A stretch of DNA of 64,000 nucleotides. It comes from Fibrobacter succinogenes (GTDB taxonomy: Bacteria > Fibrobacterota > Fibrobacteria > Fibrobacterales > Fibrobacteraceae). The notes below the pieces were generated by a model. It was not told where the DNA came from and made no database searches. It was given only the letters and a program-made list of their open reading frames with translations. The translations under genes were made by a program, and so were the position numbers. Positions 186-57,861 of the stretch are shown here, one piece after another. The stretch is taken from NCBI GenBank assembly GCA_902756345.1, contig CACVQR010000006.1:1-64000 (forward strand), read 5' to 3'. Position 1 is the first letter of the stretch, and every line of letters begins with the position of its first letter.

Positions 186-278
186 ATGTCAAACAAGAAC
201 GTTAAGAACAACAAGAAAAATCGTCGTAACAACTACAAAATTGAGTCTCTTGAACCGCGCTTGATGATGGACGCTTAA
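186..278 (+). CDS. LEPR-motif microprotein, 30 aa (locus 1)
   Basis: ATG at 186 opens a 30-codon frame: a lysine/asparagine-rich basic start (MSNKNVKNNKKNRRN), then NYKIESLEPRLMMDA and TAA. IESLEPRLMMDA matches the LEPR-XLL motif, which in other bacteria marks the N terminus of very large surface or secreted proteins and has no settled function. Here the frame stops right after the motif and no passenger follows. GAG 9 nt upstream is a weak ribosome-binding site. A homologous ORF with a good ribosome-binding site lies at 5410-5550. It could be a real microprotein or the decayed 5' end of a large surface protein gene. The motif match is clear; expression is inferred. Confidence 0.6.
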   Translation: MSNKNVKNNKKNRRNNYKIESLEPRLMMDA

Positions 279-5409: not shown

Positions 5410-5550
5410 TCAACGACACATTTTCTTCCGCCTTAGGGCATTCATCTCCGGTTGTCTTGCCGCACTTGATGGCAGGCGCGGTTCAAGAGCTTCAAGAGTG
5501 AAATTTTTACGATTTTTCTTATTCTTGTTGTTTTTTTTGTTGTTGGACAT
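5410..5550 (-). CDS. LEPR-motif microprotein, 46 aa (locus 2)
   Basis: ATG at 5550 with AGGAG 7 nt upstream opens a 46-codon frame. A Lys/Asn-rich start (MSNNKKNNKNKKNRKN) is followed by FTLEALEPRLPSSA, a textbook LEPR-XLL core (LEALEPRxLLSA), then a short tail that runs into a dispersed repeat shared with 56384-56420. It is homologous to the 30-aa ORF at 186-278. It lies 90 bp downstream of the FISUMP gene on the same strand, separated by a perfect hairpin. The good ribosome-binding site favours translation. No passenger domain follows. Role unknown. Confidence 0.7.
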   Translation of the reverse strand: MSNNKKNNKNKKNRKNFTLEALEPRLPSSAARQPEMNALRRKKMCR

Positions 5551-5564
5551 AGAAGAACTCCTAA

Positions 5565-5586
5565 GATTCCGCCCCTCAGCGGAATC
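5565..5586 (-). other. Hairpin between FISUMP stop and LEPR micro-ORF (locus 2)
   Basis: Perfect 8-bp stem GATTCCGC (5565-5572) / GCGGAATC (5579-5586), loop CCCTCA. On the minus strand it follows AAGTTTAACAAAAAAAC and lies 14 nt before the ATG at 5550, overlapping no T-run. Same position but different sequence at the other three loci. Confidence 0.7.
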
Positions 5587-5639
5587 TTTGTTTTTTTGTT
5601 AAACTTTTTGGATTTTAGGCCTAAAGAAGGCGGAGAGAA

Positions 5640-6929
5640 TTAATAGTCTTTAACGCAGCGAACGGAAGCGCCGTACCTTTTTTGATTACCCCCTGCCAGA
5701 TAAGCATCATCAGAATACACAGCTCCACCTCTACATGTAGCTGCGTCCACGGCTTCATATTCTGTAGGAAAATCAAATAGTGATCCATATCCAAGGTTTT
5801 TGAACACAACCAATTTATTTCCATCCATTCTATTCAAACGATAGCCTGTTGCAATTAGGCTCATTCCGGTAAGATTTCTTCCTCCGACCAACGAAAAGGA
5901 AATTTCTGATTTTATAGTATTTGATCGTTCAATTTCACTTACGCCAACGTCTGAAGCATAAGATGCCGCAAGCAATTCCCTTTCGGTCATTACATGCCAG
6001 CCACTCGGGCAAATACCTTGATGGAAACCGTCTCCATCAGTGTCAATCAAATCGGCACAATTTTTACTGTTACATTCATACGGCAAAGCCATCATTTCAG
6101 CCCACTGGTACAAGCCGCCCCACCAGTCATTGCAATACTCAATGCTGTCGTTATAGCAGTATATTTCAACCTTTGTGTCGTCTTCTTGCTCTTCTGTACC
6201 AGCGACCATCTTTTCATGATATTTAAGATTCTGGGCAAATACAGTAAAAGCTAGATGGACACTATCGGGGCCATACTTGTTATCAATATTAATTGTTGCG
6301 TACTTTGTTCCGTCACGAGTATCCGTAAATTCGCCATAGCTCATATTATAGTGCAACGGACTCGGCAAAGAGTCATAGCCCCGGCTGCTGCTGCTCTTGG
6401 GTGTGGAACTAGAAGAAGGCGGAATATAGAGAGTCCATACGCCATTAACACATTCAGCATACTCCCCTCCAATAATTTTTTGCACTCCATCTTTGGGACA
6501 CGGACCACCCATAACAGCCTTAGCACTTGATGAAGAACTAGCAGAACCACTCGGCACGACACTTGAAGACGATTGTTTCACTTCTTCACTGCTGCTGGAC
6601 TTGGCATCCGAAGAAGACGGCTTTACCGAGGAACTAGATTCCTTCGCCTTTTCTTCCGACGAACTGGAATTTTCATTTTTTTTAGAAGAAGAGGAGGACT
6701 TCGACTTTTCTACCGAGGAAGAAGACTTTTCCTTATTGGAGTTCTTTTGCGAACTCGAGGAATTCTTGGAAACTTCACCACTGCTAGAGCTGGTATCGTC
6801 ACAATCTTCGTTCTGATCCTCACAGGGGCGGGGATCTGGGGAAACAGAAGATGAAGAGGAATCGCCTCCGCATGCAACAAGCATGGTCAGGAGAACGGAC
6901 AGGGCAAGGACACTTTTAAAAATCTTCAC
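5640..6929 (-). CDS. FISUMP (TIGR02145) lipoprotein, 429 aa
   Basis: GTG start at 6929 with GGAGG 7 nt upstream; the ribosome-binding segment CCGGAGGTCTTCTGTGAA is shared exactly with the FISUMP gene at 57689. Lipoprotein signal KIFKSVLALSVLLTMLVACG (Cys20), then about 130 residues of Ser/Lys/Glu poly-serine linker. The major paralogous domain occupies about 190-429: YGEFTDTRDGTKYATI, the NLKYHEKM-type segment, CYNDSIEYCNDWWGGLYQWAEMMALP, then ICPSGWHVMTERELL and the end GASVRCVKDY. The Cys pairs suggest disulfides outside the cytoplasm. The family is largely confined to Fibrobacter and relatives; function unknown. A LEPR micro-ORF follows downstream. Confidence 0.9.
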   Translation of the reverse strand: MKIFKSVLALSVLLTMLVACGGDSSSSSVSPDPRPCEDQNEDCDDTSSSSGEVSKNSSSSQKNSNKEKSSSSVEKSKSSSSSKKNENSSSSEEKAKESSSSVKPSSSDAKSSSSEEVKQSSSSVVPSGSASSSSSAKAVMGGPCPKDGVQKIIGGEYAECVNGVWTLYIPPSSSSTPKSSSSRGYDSLPSPLHYNMSYGEFTDTRDGTKYATINIDNKYGPDSVHLAFTVFAQNLKYHEKMVAGTEEQEDDTKVEIYCYNDSIEYCNDWWGGLYQWAEMMALPYECNSKNCADLIDTDGDGFHQGICPSGWHVMTERELLAASYASDVGVSEIERSNTIKSEISFSLVGGRNLTGMSLIATGYRLNRMDGNKLVVFKNLGYGSLFDFPTEYEAVDAATCRGGAVYSDDAYLAGGNQKRYGASVRCVKDY

Positions 6930-6986: not shown

Positions 6987-7053
6987 AATTGTCCCTTCCG
7001 GCTATTGACAGGGGAGTTCAATTTATATATATAAGTGTTCAAATGAGCAAAAA
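6987..7053 (+). repeat. 67-bp direct repeat, copy 1 (promoter plus start codon)
   Basis: AATTGTCCCTTCCGG... to ATGAGCAAAAA, identical to 8907-8973 except for one base at 7033/8953. It contains TTGACA (7005-7010), TATATA (7028-7033) and an ATG at 7043. Here the ATG leads only into an 18-codon dead-end frame (7043-7096), whereas in copy 2 it starts the RhuM gene. Confidence 0.85.
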
Positions 7054-8566: not shown

Positions 8567-8621
8567 CAAAACAATCGAGTTTATCGAGAGATTCAGTAGC
8601 GTGCAAGTGAGTGTCGCGACA

Positions 8622-8700
8622 AAAGGATGCAAGGCGAGATAGCGCAAAAAACTTGTTTTTGCATTATCGAGCCGCAGCTACGGACGTCGTAGACGTCAAA
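8622..8700. repeat. Dispersed intergenic repeat, copy 2 (with 1721-1803)
   Basis: GGATGCAAGGCGAGATAGCG ... GACGTCAAAA. Aligns with 1721-1803 over about 80 bp: a common start ATGCAAGGCGA, an ACTTGTTT-containing middle, GAGCCGC and a closing GTCAAAA. It lies just beyond the 3' end of the LEPR remnant. Confidence 0.6.
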
Positions 8701-8721
8701 ACGCTTGCGTTGTAGACGCCT

Positions 8722-8781
8722 TTAGGCGTCCATTTTGTAGTTCTTGCGAGTGGAATTTTTCTTATTGAACTTCTTGGACAT
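8722..8781 (-). CDS. Micro-ORF, LEPR motif deleted (locus 3)
   Basis: ATG at 8781, GAGGG 9 nt upstream, 19 codons: MSKKFNKKNSTRKNYKMDA and TAA. Compared with locus 1 (RNNYKIESLEPRLMMDA) it reads as the same peptide with IESLEPRLM deleted in frame, keeping NYK and MDA. It follows a FISUMP 3' remnant and a hairpin (8795-8814) like the intact loci. Likely a decayed member; whether it is still translated is unknown. Confidence 0.5.
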   Translation of the reverse strand: MSKKFNKKNSTRKNYKMDA

Positions 8782-8794
8782 AATAACCCTCAAT

Positions 8795-8814
8795 GGCATT
8801 CTGTACGGAATGCC
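8795..8814 (-). other. Hairpin before micro-ORF (locus 3)
   Basis: Perfect 7-bp stem GGCATTC (8795-8801) / GAATGCC (8808-8814). On the minus strand it follows AAAATTTTAAACAAAAAA and ends 13 nt before the ATG at 8781. Confidence 0.65.
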
Positions 8815-8860: not shown

Positions 8861-8905
8861 TTATTCAACCATTACACAACGGACAGAAAAACCCTGAGTC
8901 TTATA
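8861..8905 (-). pseudogene. FISUMP C-terminal remnant
   Basis: The last 14 codons before TAA at 8861 read YKTQGFSVRCVMVE, matching the family end (GxSVRCVKx). Upstream the frame runs straight into the 67-bp direct repeat (8907-8973), so the rest of the gene has been replaced. The downstream hairpin and micro-ORF are still in place. Confidence 0.7.
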
Positions 8906-8906
8906 C

Positions 8907-8973
8907 AATTGTCCCTTCCGGCTATTGACAGGGGAGTTCAATTTATATATATTAGTGTTCAAATGAGCAAAAA
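8907..8973 (+). repeat. 67-bp direct repeat, copy 2, with leaderless promoter for RhuM
   Basis: TTGACA (8925-8930), 17-bp spacer, TATATT (8948-8953), then 9 nt and the ATG at 8963, with no Shine-Dalgarno. One mismatch to copy 1 at 6987-7053. The left border coincides with the break in the FISUMP remnant. Confidence 0.8.
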
Positions 8974-10024
8974 TGGTCAAAAATTCAATCCCGTGTCTAT
9001 CCGCAGTTCCGCTGCAGAATACTTGACTTATGTAGCAGCCGTTGGCGGTTCCGAACAGAGCGTCGAAATGCGTTACGAAGACGAAAACGTATGGCTCACG
9101 CAAAAAATGATGGCAGAACTGTACGGGGTCGATGTGCGTACGGTTAATGACCATATTTCAAAAATTCTGGCAGATGGTGAATTGCCCGAAAATCCAACTA
9201 TCCGAAATTTTCGGATAGTTCAAACAGAAGGTTCACGACAGGTTTCCCGTGAAATAATGCACTACAACCTCCAGATGATTATCGCCGTGGGGTTCAAGGT
9301 CAACAACGAGCGGGCGGTGCAGTTCCGCAAATGGGCGGGGCAAATTGTCAAGGATTACACCATCCAGGGCTGGGTCATGGACAAGGAGCGGCTCAAGAAT
9401 TTCGGGACAATCCTTACCGAAGACTATTTCGAGCGGCAATTGGAAGCCATTCGAGAAATCCGCGTGTCGGAGCGACGCTTTTACCAGAAGGTGACCGATA
9501 TCTATTCGACTGCGTTAGATTACGATCCCTCTGCAAAAATCACCCGGGATTTTTTCAAGAAAGTCCAAAACAAACTCCACTGGGCGATTCACGGCCATAC
9601 GGCGGCGGAACTCATTGTAGAACGGGCTGACAGCCAAAAGGAGCACATGGGGTTAAAGACCTGGGCTGCATCTCCAAAGGGCAAAATTCTTCAGTCCGAC
9701 GTAGTTGTTGCAAAGAATTACCTTGAGGAAGATGAACTCAAGGCCCTGGAGCTGATTGTCTCGGGTTATCTGGATTTTGCAGAAATGCAGGCCGCAAGGC
9801 ACATTCCTATGACGATGGAAGACTGGGCGAGGCACCTTGACCGCATTCTTGAGGCTACGGAGCACGAACTTTTGACGAATGCGGGTAAGATTTCGATGGA
9901 AGTGGCCCAGGCCCACGCCATTACGGAATGGGAAAAATATCGCGTGGTTCAGGATAAGCTTTTCCACAGCGATTTCGACTATTTTTTGGAATTGCACGAA
10001 AAAATGGCACAGTACAAAGCGTAG
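8963..10024 (+). CDS. RhuM-family (virulence RhuM) protein
   Basis: 353 aa from the ATG at 8963; the frame is open 18 codons further upstream but that part is the promoter repeat. Family features: VWLTQKMMAELYGVDVRTVNDHISKIL (an HTH-like Bro/RhuM start), EGSRQVSREIMHYNLQMIIAVGFKVNNERAVQFRKWA, and the long C-terminal region with FFKKVQNKLHWAIHGHTAAELIVERAD and AQAHAITEWEKYR. RhuM homologues occur in pathogenicity islands and mobile regions; their function is not settled. The gene is intact. Promoter and start codon come from a segment duplicated 1.9 kb upstream. Confidence 0.9.
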   Translation: MSKNGQKFNPVSIRSSAAEYLTYVAAVGGSEQSVEMRYEDENVWLTQKMMAELYGVDVRTVNDHISKILADGELPENPTIRNFRIVQTEGSRQVSREIMHYNLQMIIAVGFKVNNERAVQFRKWAGQIVKDYTIQGWVMDKERLKNFGTILTEDYFERQLEAIREIRVSERRFYQKVTDIYSTALDYDPSAKITRDFFKKVQNKLHWAIHGHTAAELIVERADSQKEHMGLKTWAASPKGKILQSDVVVAKNYLEEDELKALELIVSGYLDFAEMQAARHIPMTMEDWARHLDRILEATEHELLTNAGKISMEVAQAHAITEWEKYRVVQDKLFHSDFDYFLELHEKMAQYKA

Positions 10025-16290: not shown

Positions 16291-18570
16291 ATGAAAATCA
16301 ATCATGGTATAAATTTTGCCATGGCGGTATTTTGCGCAGGTGCAGTAAGCGCGAACGCCGCCATTGAATGGGTAAACCAGTGTGCCAGTAACGGCTTTAC
16401 ACTGATTGCGGAATCGGATCACTTTGAAGTTTGCAAGAAGCCGACGACAGACGACGGCCAGGCAAACAACGTGTCCATTCCGAATTCGGATGCGCAGGGC
16501 GTGCTCACGTCGCTTGAAAAAGTTTATTCATTCTATATCGATTCGCTCGGCTGGATGCTTCCGTTCCCGAAAAGCCCGGATAAGAAACTCAAGAGCAACA
16601 TCTACGTGTTCGATAATTCCGTCATGGCGGCGCTCTACGGCGGTCAGGATTACGTGAAGGGCCTGAACAATGAATTCGGCCCCGGAATGTGGATTGGCGT
16701 GGGCTCGCTCAAAGATTACTGGGGTACGTCGCATGAGTTCGCACATGGCCTGCAAGGGGTTGCGGGCTGGATGGGTAACAATAGCCATTCGGGCTGGTTC
16801 GCCGAAAGCCATGCGAACTGGATGGCCCACCAGTACAATCCGAATGACGCCCATTGCTCGGAATACCTGATTAATTATCCATACCTGTATTACGGTTCCA
16901 CGCGCGACCGCTACTGCAACTGGCAGTTCTTGGAGCACCTCAAGGAAGAATTCGGCGGCGGCCACAAGGGTGCCCACGAAGTCAATCGTATTTGGATGGA
17001 ATCGATCCGCGATGGCGAAGACGGCCGCATGGAGCAGACGCCGTTTACCGCGATGATGATGGTTTACGGTTGGACGCTCGATAGCCTGAACCAGCAGTTC
17101 GGCAAGTTCGCGATGAAGAATGCGACGCTCGAGTATACGCCCGCAAAGAAGGCTTTGTATAAAAAATCCTATGGCGATTATGAATTCAAGACGCGTCGTG
17201 ACGCCAGTTGGGGCGACAATTACCGCAGACACACGCGCGTGACCATGCTGAACAAGATGGAATGCGCGGCGGGCGAGAAGTGCGCGGACCGCTACATTTC
17301 GCCGAGTTATTGGGCTCCGCAGCGCTGGGGCTACAACCTGGTGCGAATCTATCCGGATTCCGCCGGCAAGGTGACGGTCAAGTTCCGCGGAATCGTGCAG
17401 GACAAGCCGGCCGTGAACGGGTATAAATGCTTTGGCGACAACACCGACCACTACATGGGAAAATCATACAACTGGTGCAATTACGCGCCCGACAAGCTGC
17501 CGGACCCGGCCTCGGGCTGGACGGTCGGGCTAGTCGCGGAGGGCGCGGACGGAACGCCCCGCTACAGCGAGATGAAGCATGGAACCGGATTCAATCTTGA
17601 AATTGAGACGAAGGCGAGCGACAAGGCTTTGTGGCTTGCCGTGACGGCGACGCCGACCGAGATGCAGACGATTTTGTGGGACCAGTTCTACTACAGCATT
17701 TACCGCTACCCGTACATGATCGAGGTCGTGAATGGCGTTCCCGAAGGCTACAACAAGGATTTCTGGAAGCCCGTAAATGCAAACGGCTACACCAAGCACA
17801 GTAACGGCGGCGGCCTCGTGAGCAGCAAGGCGAAGGTTGACGCCTCCGTGTATGTGGGTCCCGATGCGGTCGTGAACGGCGGCACCGTTTCTGGAAACGC
17901 CCGCATCGAGGATTTCGCGGTCATAGACGGCGGAACCATTAGCGGGAATGCCGTTGTCCGCGGGCGCGCGCTCGTGACTGCAGGTACCATTGGCGACGAT
18001 GCCGTGCTCGAAGAAGACGCCTGGCTCGTGAGCGGAAGCATTACCGGCAAGGCTAAGGTTGGCGCGCTTTCGATTATCGTGAATACGACGGTGACCGACA
18101 ACGCTCAAGTCTACGGCGTGATGTGGGCATTAAACGGCAAAAAGCTCTCTGGCACGGCGCAGTTGCGCGGCGACCTCGAAAACAACTTCGACAAGGAAAT
18201 TTCGAAGGGGATCTTCTACGGCATGGTCGACAACGGAATGCTTAACAATGCAAACTATGGCGCAAACCTCACGACTCCGCCTACCGATGCGACCGCAAGC
18301 CTGGATAAGGCCGTATGGTATGCGGTGGCGGACGATTCGACTGAAACGGGTCCTTCTAAATTAATCAATACTCAACGCCTGCGCCTGAATTTGGCGGACG
18401 ATACTTTTGAAGTGTTCAATTTGAACGGAAAGTATCTGGGTGTCGTTAAAAACGGAACTCAAGGTCGAATTTCGCTGCAAGAATCTTTGCGCAAGGCGGG
18501 CCTGAACGCGGGCACATATCTTATTCGCAGCAAGGAATCTAATAAAATGCACCGCGTGAACTTGCGTTAA
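16291..18570 (+). CDS. Secreted HExxH protein (Svx/AvrXca-like, DUF6055) with hexapeptide helix
   Basis: 759 aa. Signal peptide about 1-23 (ends SANA). The first half carries a zinc-metallopeptidase signature TSHEFAHGLQG (His148, His152) with a downstream WFAESHANW (Glu172), the glutamate-zincin arrangement seen in Svx/AvrXca-type proteins. Residues about 510-650 are imperfect hexapeptide turns (AVVNGGTVSGNARIEDFAVI ...) of a left-handed beta-helix. The C-terminal about 65 residues (FEVFNLNGKYLG to GTYLIRSKESNKMHRVNL) are a sorting-type domain. Svx was described as a type II-secreted factor of plant-attacking bacteria; here a plant cell wall or rumen protein target is inferred. Confidence 0.8.
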   Translation: MKINHGINFAMAVFCAGAVSANAAIEWVNQCASNGFTLIAESDHFEVCKKPTTDDGQANNVSIPNSDAQGVLTSLEKVYSFYIDSLGWMLPFPKSPDKKLKSNIYVFDNSVMAALYGGQDYVKGLNNEFGPGMWIGVGSLKDYWGTSHEFAHGLQGVAGWMGNNSHSGWFAESHANWMAHQYNPNDAHCSEYLINYPYLYYGSTRDRYCNWQFLEHLKEEFGGGHKGAHEVNRIWMESIRDGEDGRMEQTPFTAMMMVYGWTLDSLNQQFGKFAMKNATLEYTPAKKALYKKSYGDYEFKTRRDASWGDNYRRHTRVTMLNKMECAAGEKCADRYISPSYWAPQRWGYNLVRIYPDSAGKVTVKFRGIVQDKPAVNGYKCFGDNTDHYMGKSYNWCNYAPDKLPDPASGWTVGLVAEGADGTPRYSEMKHGTGFNLEIETKASDKALWLAVTATPTEMQTILWDQFYYSIYRYPYMIEVVNGVPEGYNKDFWKPVNANGYTKHSNGGGLVSSKAKVDASVYVGPDAVVNGGTVSGNARIEDFAVIDGGTISGNAVVRGRALVTAGTIGDDAVLEEDAWLVSGSITGKAKVGALSIIVNTTVTDNAQVYGVMWALNGKKLSGTAQLRGDLENNFDKEISKGIFYGMVDNGMLNNANYGANLTTPPTDATASLDKAVWYAVADDSTETGPSKLINTQRLRLNLADDTFEVFNLNGKYLGVVKNGTQGRISLQESLRKAGLNAGTYLIRSKESNKMHRVNLR

Positions 18571-56334: not shown

Positions 56335-56463
56335 TTAATAAGAGTCATTATTGCGAAGAGCGCTTCGGCTCTGCCTGCACCGCAGCTCACATGGCCTCGG
56401 GCTTCGCCCGACGAATGTTCGCTTAGCGGCCAGGCATTCGCCGTCGCTTTTCTTCTTAGACAT
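56335..56463 (-). CDS. MSKK micro-ORF without LEPR motif (locus 4)
   Basis: ATG at 56463, AGGGGG 6 nt upstream, 42 codons: MSKKKSDGECLAAKRTFVG then a basic Cys/Arg-rich tail that reads through dispersed repeat sequence shared with 5371-5412. It occupies the same place as the LEPR ORFs: 12 nt after a perfect hairpin, downstream of a FISUMP gene. The motif itself is gone. Probably decayed; translation uncertain. Confidence 0.45.
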   Translation of the reverse strand: MSKKKSDGECLAAKRTFVGRSPRPCELRCRQSRSALRNNDSY

Positions 56464-56475
56464 ATAACCCCCTGG

Positions 56476-56492
56476 GCTTTTCAAGGAAAAGC
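56476..56492 (-). other. Hairpin between FISUMP stop and micro-ORF (locus 4)
   Basis: Perfect 7-bp stem GCTTTTC (56476-56482) / GAAAAGC (56486-56492), loop of 3. On the minus strand it follows AAGATTTTAAACAAATTAAT and ends 12 nt before the ATG at 56463. Confidence 0.65.
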
Positions 56493-56522
56493 ATAATTAA
56501 TTTGTTTAAAATCTTGCTATGA

Positions 56523-57689
56523 TTAGCGGTTTTTCACGCAACGGACAGACAGGCCGTTCGGCTTGTCAGAATTCATTTTTAAATCGACTCTACTTATACC
56601 CCGCGCAGCCGACCCCAACGATATCGAAGTTACATTAGTGGCAGATGATTCAAACGGTAATCTGTAACGTCCATAAACTCTAATATATTGGTATTCCCCT
56701 GTTATGGCCAAAGCAATTCCCCCATACAAGGCCGAGAATCCTTGGCTGTTGCTCCCGCCATTTACTTTCGACACAAAACCATAATCATCTTCACTTGCCC
56801 CCTTCAAGGCGCCCCATTCTTGCCTATTCATCACGTGCCACCCTTCCGGACAGATCCCCTGTATCTTCAAACGATCCCATTCATGATCGTATTCGCGGCC
56901 CGGGAATATCGAGTCCGGGCAGGCGGGAGTCGTTCCCGTCCATACGCTGTCGCATGCCTTCGGAAGGCCCATCGCCTCGCTCCAGCTGTACAGCCCGCCG
57001 AACCCGTTGTCGCAGAACCACGGGTCGTCGTCGTAGCAGTATTTTTCGGGAGCATTGTCGTCAAACACCGTCGTATTTAACGGGATTTGTTTTCCATAGT
57101 TAAGGTTGGTCGCGAATACGGTCATATTTTCAAAGCCATCGTAACCGAATTTCGTGTCTAAAATCCTGTACTTTTGCCCATCACGCGGGTCAACAAATTC
57201 CCCATACGAATACTTGCTGTTGTAAAGACTGTCCATGTTGAAATAGCTGCTGGTGGGCACGGACGAGGAACTGGAACGAACATACAGAACATAGAAGCCA
57301 TCTTTACAGATATATTCCAATTTTTTGCCAGATTCTCGATCGGTCCTGTCTAGAATTGAGCCTTCACTAGAACAAGGCTTAGTCCAAACAGAACTTGACG
57401 AAGTCCCCGAGCTGCTCGACTTAACGCTGGACGAGGCGGGACTGGATTCACCGCCACTGCTCTTGGAATCCGTAGACGAACTGGATTTCGCAGAAGAAGA
57501 ACTGTTCTTCGATGAGGACGAGACGCTGCTGCTGGATTTGTCTCCATTGCCGTCACTGGTCCCGTCGCCGCTGCTCAGGATTTCGCTAGACGAAGATTCC
57601 TTTTCCGGTTCAACGAAGCTGCTGCTGTCATCGTCACCGCAGGCGACGAACAAAACAGCAGGAAGCAACAACGCAGCAAAATATTTCAC
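56523..57689 (-). CDS. FISUMP (TIGR02145) lipoprotein, 388 aa
   Basis: GTG start at 57689 with GGAGG 7 nt upstream (CCGGAGGTCTTCTGTGAA, identical to the FISUMP gene ending at 5640); the longer frame from a TTG just reads through this ribosome-binding site. Lipobox LPAVLFVACGDDD (Cys17). Poly-serine linker (about 25-110) with SSSS-K/S repeats, then the major paralogous domain about 160-388: YGEFVDPRDGQKYRILDTK, CYDDDPWFCDNGFGGLYSWSEAMGLP, GICPEGWHVMNRQEWGAL and the end GLSVRCVKNR. Surface lipoprotein of unknown function. Confidence 0.9.
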   Translation of the reverse strand: MKYFAALLLPAVLFVACGDDDSSSFVEPEKESSSSEILSSGDGTSDGNGDKSSSSVSSSSKNSSSSAKSSSSTDSKSSGGESSPASSSVKSSSSGTSSSSVWTKPCSSEGSILDRTDRESGKKLEYICKDGFYVLYVRSSSSSVPTSSYFNMDSLYNSKYSYGEFVDPRDGQKYRILDTKFGYDGFENMTVFATNLNYGKQIPLNTTVFDDNAPEKYCYDDDPWFCDNGFGGLYSWSEAMGLPKACDSVWTGTTPACPDSIFPGREYDHEWDRLKIQGICPEGWHVMNRQEWGALKGASEDDYGFVSKVNGGSNSQGFSALYGGIALAITGEYQYIRVYGRYRLPFESSATNVTSISLGSAARGISRVDLKMNSDKPNGLSVRCVKNR

Positions 57690-57861
57690 AGAAGACCTCC
57701 GGGGTTCCAACAATAATTCGAGCTAAGTATAGTTTTTTCGCAGATTAAAAAAAAGATGCCGCATCAAGTGCGGCATGACAATCAGGGAAACATTTTTACA
57801 CAAACAGATTTTACGTTAGTAAAATCGAATCCGTGTGGCTCCACTAGGGCGCTTGAAAAAC

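Follow-up and report, generated by a model that had tools for sequence, protein, structure and literature searches.

Peptides carrying the LEPR-XLL motif are expected at the N-terminus of very long proteins, which raises the question of why, in one stretch of a Fibrobacter succinogenes genome, several of them end at or shortly after the motif. This stretch, hereafter the window, spans positions 1 to 64,000 of contig CACVQR010000006.1 (G000:C6:1-64000, G000 being its own genome). A sequence-only reading had described its LEPR loci as free-standing peptides, used either as stand-alone products or representing the decayed 5' ends of a family of giants.

LEPR loci of the window

Both LEPR-XLL peptides, at 186-278 and at 5410-5550, are confirmed. 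The former, on the plus strand, translates to MSNKNVKNNKKNRRNNYKIESLEPRLMMDA-stop and scores 18.9 bits against the NCBIfam model NF012209 (LEPR-8K), above its cut-off of 17; the latter (5550-5410, minus strand) reads MSNNKKNNKNKKNRKNFTLEALEPRLPSSAARQ...-stop and, with 13.3 bits, falls below it. LEPR-encoding DNA is enriched in the window, with seven matches against a mean of 1.75 in shuffles. NF012209 places the motif at the N-terminus of a very long protein. Both peptides depart from this (30 and 46 aa, closed by an in-frame stop), and it holds for the giants having the same heads as the stubs.

None of the peptides stands alone: directly upstream of each of the four loci, on the same strand, is a FISUMP (TIGR02145) gene or its remnant, a neighbour that the sequence-only reading had overlooked. 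At the first locus (plus strand), the 3' end of a FISUMP gene (2-115, ...GLPVRCVKNYLSESR-stop, read from sequence and truncated by the contig start) is followed by a leader (139-185) composed of an A-tract, a hairpin at 153-172 (AGGGCTTT-gaga-AAAGCTCT) and a ribosome-binding site, then by the 30-aa stub at 186-278. Its tail, of type T03 (MMDA-stop), is common to five further genomes. The other three loci are on the minus strand. A FISUMP lipoprotein gene with a Ser-rich linker (5640-6929, profile match) precedes a leader hairpin (5563-5588) whose plus-strand reading is a terminator, and the 46-aa LEPR ORF at 5410-5550, of which the head is intact and the tail enters a dispersed repeat. At the third locus, only the last 14 codons of a FISUMP gene are left (8861-8906, ..KTQGFSVRCVMVE-stop), followed by a leader hairpin (8795-8814, read from sequence) and a split LEPR head at 8722-8781, which translates from 8781 to 8722 as MSKKFNKKNSTRKNYKMDA-stop. 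At the fourth, a FISUMP lipoprotein gene (56523-57713, profile match) and a leader hairpin (56478-56494, read from sequence and aligned) lead to an LEPR start (56335-56463); the slot of genome G041 is in the same state.

Two of these loci had been described as reduced forms of the peptide. An in-frame deletion of IESLEPRLM had been proposed for 8722-8781. Instead, NYK is followed by an inserted dispersed repeat (GGACGCCTAAAGGCGTC...GCACGCTACT), which supplies the terminal MDA-stop. A deletion is ruled out by a paralogue in the same genome (C20:560), where the displaced end ...GAGTCTCTTGAACCGAGGCTCTTGATG (ESLEPRLLM) persists beyond the repeat, ~90 nt further along, and by G074:C65:8453, which has the same insertion. 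The reading of 56335-56463 as a mere MSKK start stands, its minus-strand ORF keeping only ATGTCTAAGAAGAA before another repeat (AAAGCGACGGCGAATGCCTGGCCGC...), which has 11 matches in the ~359 kb of own-genome sequence searched. Dispersed repeats are found in the window at 8612-8733 and 1717-1803, and at 56385-56450. They form two families, marked by GACGCC...GGCGTC hairpins or by AAAGCGACGGCGAATGCC starts, and at several loci they have invaded LEPR stubs and leader hairpins.

Other genes of the window include a YoeB/RelB type toxin-antitoxin pair (2014-2581) adjoining the T03 slot, and a protein resembling the Svx/AvrXca family (16291-18570; 482.6 bits, below the cut-off of 625). FISUMP-LEPR arrays elsewhere (L049, L173, L177) have AbiEii-type genes and further AAA ATPase genes as neighbours.

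Pairing of FISUMP and LEPR across genomes

A LEPR profile search of 80 Fibrobacter genomes recovered both short ORFs (26-60 aa), which the sequence-only reading had suggested looking for, and giants of up to 8,237 aa. Within the class, matches beyond the genus come solely from genera of its own family. The survey set comprises 89 exact LEPR loci from 33 Fibrobacter genomes. A FISUMP gene ends 16-237 nt upstream in 86 of them, the remaining three being located at window or contig edges. This association is not circular, since 79 of the 89 loci, those in relatives, were retrieved through their LEPR match and not through FISUMP. More than half of the ORFs (54) stop within 60 aa, two measure 61-99 aa, and 33 reach at least 100 aa, many of the latter being giants of 3,800-8,200 aa. 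The stubs thus cannot be put down to recent frameshifts in genes that always continue into a long ORF in relatives, with 54 of 89 loci being short. The one giant checked for domains, that of G039 (5,901 aa), possesses RTX repeats (PF00353).

The own genome harbors 115 FISUMP domain matches. With the LEPR model, at E-values up to 10, eight places are found, each behind a FISUMP gene, and additional LEPR loci were recovered starting from the FISUMP side; this LEPR search found no LEPR ORF longer than 147 aa in G000. The upstream FISUMP genes exceed the TIGR02145 and PF09603 cut-offs (65.8 and 69.2 bits against 41.65; 41.6 and 49.7 against 33.9), and those of arrays display a putative lipobox of the L-S-A-C type, read by eye. 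Sequence search returned no related solved structure, and a low-confidence predicted model (pLDDT 51.7) gave no PDB match with E <= 0.001. The LEPR ORF is probably the front end of the second gene in a two-gene unit, behind a FISUMP lipoprotein gene.

Heads, tails and leaders

The DNA before LEPR (head) and the DNA after it (tail) were clustered separately, yielding 27 head types and 39 tail types among the 89 loci. Twelve heads are joined to two or more tails, and seven tails to two or more heads. Stub tails are discrete (MMDFAV*, LLMAAVE*, MMDA*) and common to many heads. T00 is joined to 12 heads and T01 to three. Five heads (H02, H04, H06, H07, H11) end in a stub in one genome and in a long ORF or giant in another, and an identical leader and head can precede either a stub or a giant. 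All four combinations of H02 or H04 with T00 or T01 are present, which requires recombination or repeated identical events. In T00, the MMDFAV-stop is followed by AATTCCACATTCCATATTTCAC... and then by the start of the next FISUMP gene, and arrays of two or three units keep a constant plan, in which a first FISUMP gene, head and T00 are followed by another FISUMP gene, whose signal peptide is fixed, and then by head and T01. Both the units and the stub arrays recur in a one-contig genome of another genus (G104).

Counted from the L of LEPR, identity between loci breaks at +12 to +26 nt. With breakpoints spread over 14 nt, site-specific recombination at LEPR is not favoured. Carriage of the stubs by phages was set aside, T00 being absent from the viral contigs searched.

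A 146-aa LEPR ORF of the same length and with a nearly identical tail is found in four species behind different heads (L049:1706-2146; L177:73294-73734, in genome coordinates; L184:828-1268; L162, genome position 8349). In G031, the start of this ORF extends into one of 5,216 aa.

In one head group, a hairpin of variable sequence has its end 9-14 nt upstream of the start codon, exceeding 95% of shuffles at 33 of 37 loci; it is present in only 4 of 52 array-type heads. It is accompanied by a 5'-side A-tract in the leaders of H00, H01, H10, and H20 loci, as at 139-172 and 5563-5588 of the window. Because the A-tract (7.1 of 10 on average) precedes the hairpin, the two look like an intrinsic terminator on the antisense strand, placed between FISUMP and LEPR; two of these hairpins are listed as predicted terminators on the opposite strand. 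Being missing from most array-type heads, the hairpin is not essential to exchange.

Exchange of cassettes between slots and species

Identity profiles over 1.5 kb reveal a block of ~1 kb, containing the FISUMP domain, the spacer and the LEPR head, between constant flanks. Two kinds of mosaics were observed. In the first, one cassette occupies different slots: between the locus of a 28-aa stub (G044:C19:1697) and that of the 5,901-aa giant (G039:C1:679105), identity is ~50% upstream, rises to 98-100% across most of the stretch from ~-960 to near LEPR, and falls to ~55% past LEPR. The pattern is reversed between G044:C19:7426 and G043:C4:382358, where one slot holds different cassettes: signal peptide and early linker are 78-100% identical (mostly >90%), the FISUMP domain ~60%, and the sequence from LEPR onward 92-100%. 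The same block is thereby found in different flanks, and different blocks in the same flanks. At the protein level, the 5' break falls within the Ser-rich linker.

These cassettes are closer to each other than the genomes harboring them. Those of G044 and G039 are 99.8% identical over 448 nt, yet their tails are unrelated, and the background identity of the two genomes at the housekeeping lpxD locus is 84%. Between G044 and G010, the ends of H04 cassettes are 98-100% alike, against 70% at lpxD. In some pairs (G065 versus G010, G039 versus G041), leader and head have moved together with only a small part of the FISUMP gene, and the cassette therefore has no single fixed extent. The comparison set contains one genome per species. 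Many of these are drafts or assembled from metagenomes and hence prone to misassembly at repeats; the units and stub arrays are also seen in the single contig of G104, but any individual mosaic may be a chimera. Taken together, these sequence comparisons indicate that the segment running from the linker of FISUMP as far as LEPR constitutes a cassette, replaced between slots and passing nearly unchanged between species.

The slots of the window bear the same marks. That at 56.5 kb is absent in G044 and houses other FISUMP domains in G004, G041, G076, and G077. The domain of G077 is 87-100% identical over ~700 nt to the window gene at 5640-6929 and only ~60% identical to the window's own gene at this slot (56523-57713); the window's 5.6-kb cassette is thus found in G077 at the slot orthologous to 56.5 kb. 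G041 has the same 3' end there (ATGTCTAAGAAGAA and the repeat), with a different FISUMP domain and hairpin. LEPR is therefore not essential for exchange, since this slot has exchanged its cassette despite having lost LEPR. At G044:C1:934801-936490, the counterpart of the 8.7-kb slot (flanks 96-98% identical), G044 possesses a FISUMP gene and a 144-aa LEPR ORF, against the 14-codon remnant and split head of the window.

Close to this slot, a 67-nt direct repeat (99%; 6987-7053 and 8907-8973) includes a promoter-like TTGACA-17-TATATT ahead of a RhuM-family gene (8963-10024). It flanks a block with an AAA_14/DUF4143 gene, 94% identical to G074:C65, and the arrangement looks as if recombination had inserted the block.

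Origin and possible use of the stubs

The stubs are probably the empty ends of exchanged FISUMP-LEPR cassettes in two-gene units, partly decayed. Each unit would consist of a FISUMP lipoprotein gene with a Ser-rich linker, and of a second gene encoding a protein that starts with a K/N-rich head and LEPR-XLL. Exchange would proceed by homologous recombination, for which the DNA of the Ser-rich linker, that of the conserved end of FISUMP (SVRCVK) and the stretch coding for LEPR are the likely arms, with donor DNA presumably derived from other Fibrobacter. Both the surface lipoprotein and the giant's N-terminus would be diversified in this way, a stub being what the cassette leaves where the slot has no giant. 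Open heads may be kept either by passage of cassettes through giant-bearing slots or by some use of the peptide, and stubs would decay through dispersed repeats and point mutations.

The first rival, which we hold possible but rather doubtful, sees the stubs as microproteins with a function: free LEPR leader peptides produced together with the FISUMP lipoprotein. Head codons are indeed under purifying selection (pS 0.32, pN 0.054, ratio 0.17, p 5e-22, 17 independent pairs), equally so in stub-stub (0.11) and passenger-passenger pairs (0.12), and also in stub pairs with the same tail (ratio 0.24, p 3e-8). The leader with its ribosome-binding site is conserved, and G000 retains about ten open LEPR ORFs although the LEPR model recovers none above 147 aa there. 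Such constraint is no proof of stub use, because heads circulate between stubs and giants and may acquire it in the latter. Moreover, the C-terminus past LEPR is set by the slot and not by the head, and repeat insertions and broken heads occur among stubs: a DNA-level search revealed start loss or frameshift in G043:C4, G039:C18, G039:C14, and G104:C1:693404, and a nonsense mutation in G044:C19:8791. The excess of broken heads over passenger loci (5 versus 0) is not significant (p 0.15). With stub heads constrained and sometimes broken, a stand-alone product of the stubs may exist. It could act on the export of FISUMP or on the machinery that secretes or sorts LEPR giants, or could compete with the giants.

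Truncation of each giant gene in place is markedly less probable. The idea of decayed 5' ends retains some merit: other Fibrobacter genomes have giants that begin with the same heads, and the 8.7-kb slot has lost the FISUMP gene and the 144-aa ORF still seen in G044. Most stubs, however, are not random truncations. Their discrete tails recur behind many heads, the moving part is the FISUMP domain with the head, and the constant T00 leads straight into the next FISUMP gene. One tail shared by 12 heads, within arrays of constant structure, makes independent truncations impossible as the source. Random truncation and absence of constraint, as expected of pseudogene remnants, are seen at single loci and not overall; independent decay is refuted as a general account and stands for single slots such as 8722-8781.

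That the giant tails are mobile, entering or leaving LEPR sites, is comparably improbable: T04 and its neighbour gene do lie behind three different heads, but fixed slots keep their 5' flank and tail while FISUMP domain and head differ, and no fixed breakpoint was seen at LEPR.

Beyond the cassette account itself, a more speculative extension, to which we give a minor chance, is live surface variation: stub-ended FISUMP-LEPR arrays would serve as a store copied into the slots before giant RTX-repeat proteins, LEPR DNA acting both as signal and as recombination arm. If so, the lipoprotein and the N-terminus of the giant would change together.

Comparison with known systems

The loci resemble the LEPR-XLL family (NF012209, LEPR-8K) in their motif, its N-terminal position and the presence of giants of 3,800-8,200 aa in the same genus. 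They differ in that 54 of 89 ORFs end within 60 aa and the motif is the junction of a recombining cassette. No account of LEPR-XLL function was found in the literature searched, nor any of FISUMP-LEPR pairing and cassette exchange.

The upstream gene belongs to the FISUMP or Fib_succ_major family (TIGR02145, PF09603), and its high copy number agrees with the 17-119 copies of TIGR02145 reported per Fibrobacteres genome, with one exception (PMC4704652). A cellulose-binding or cohesin-like role has been suggested (PMC4704652), and a FISUMP protein has been located in the cell envelope (PMC4619616). FISUMP is thus a hugely amplified family of unsettled function in a leading cellulose-degrading rumen genus. 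Trading of FISUMP and LEPR as one unit would account for part of this copy number, and the pairing supplies a partner for each giant, making both functions testable.

Cassette-based variation of surface proteins is known from pilE/pilS of Neisseria and vlsE of Borrelia. These systems share with the Fibrobacter loci variable blocks within constant flanks, many partial copies, and probably homologous exchange. In contrast, the Fibrobacter cassette reaches from the end of one gene into the beginning of the following one, its copies are whole lipoprotein genes that may be expressed, and its exchange is seen between species, from one genome per species. In polymorphic toxin systems, large secreted proteins are put together by recombination from constant and variable modules, and stand-alone modules also occur (PMC3482391). 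The part swapped there is C-terminal, whereas Fibrobacter swaps the domain of the upstream lipoprotein together with the N-terminal head.
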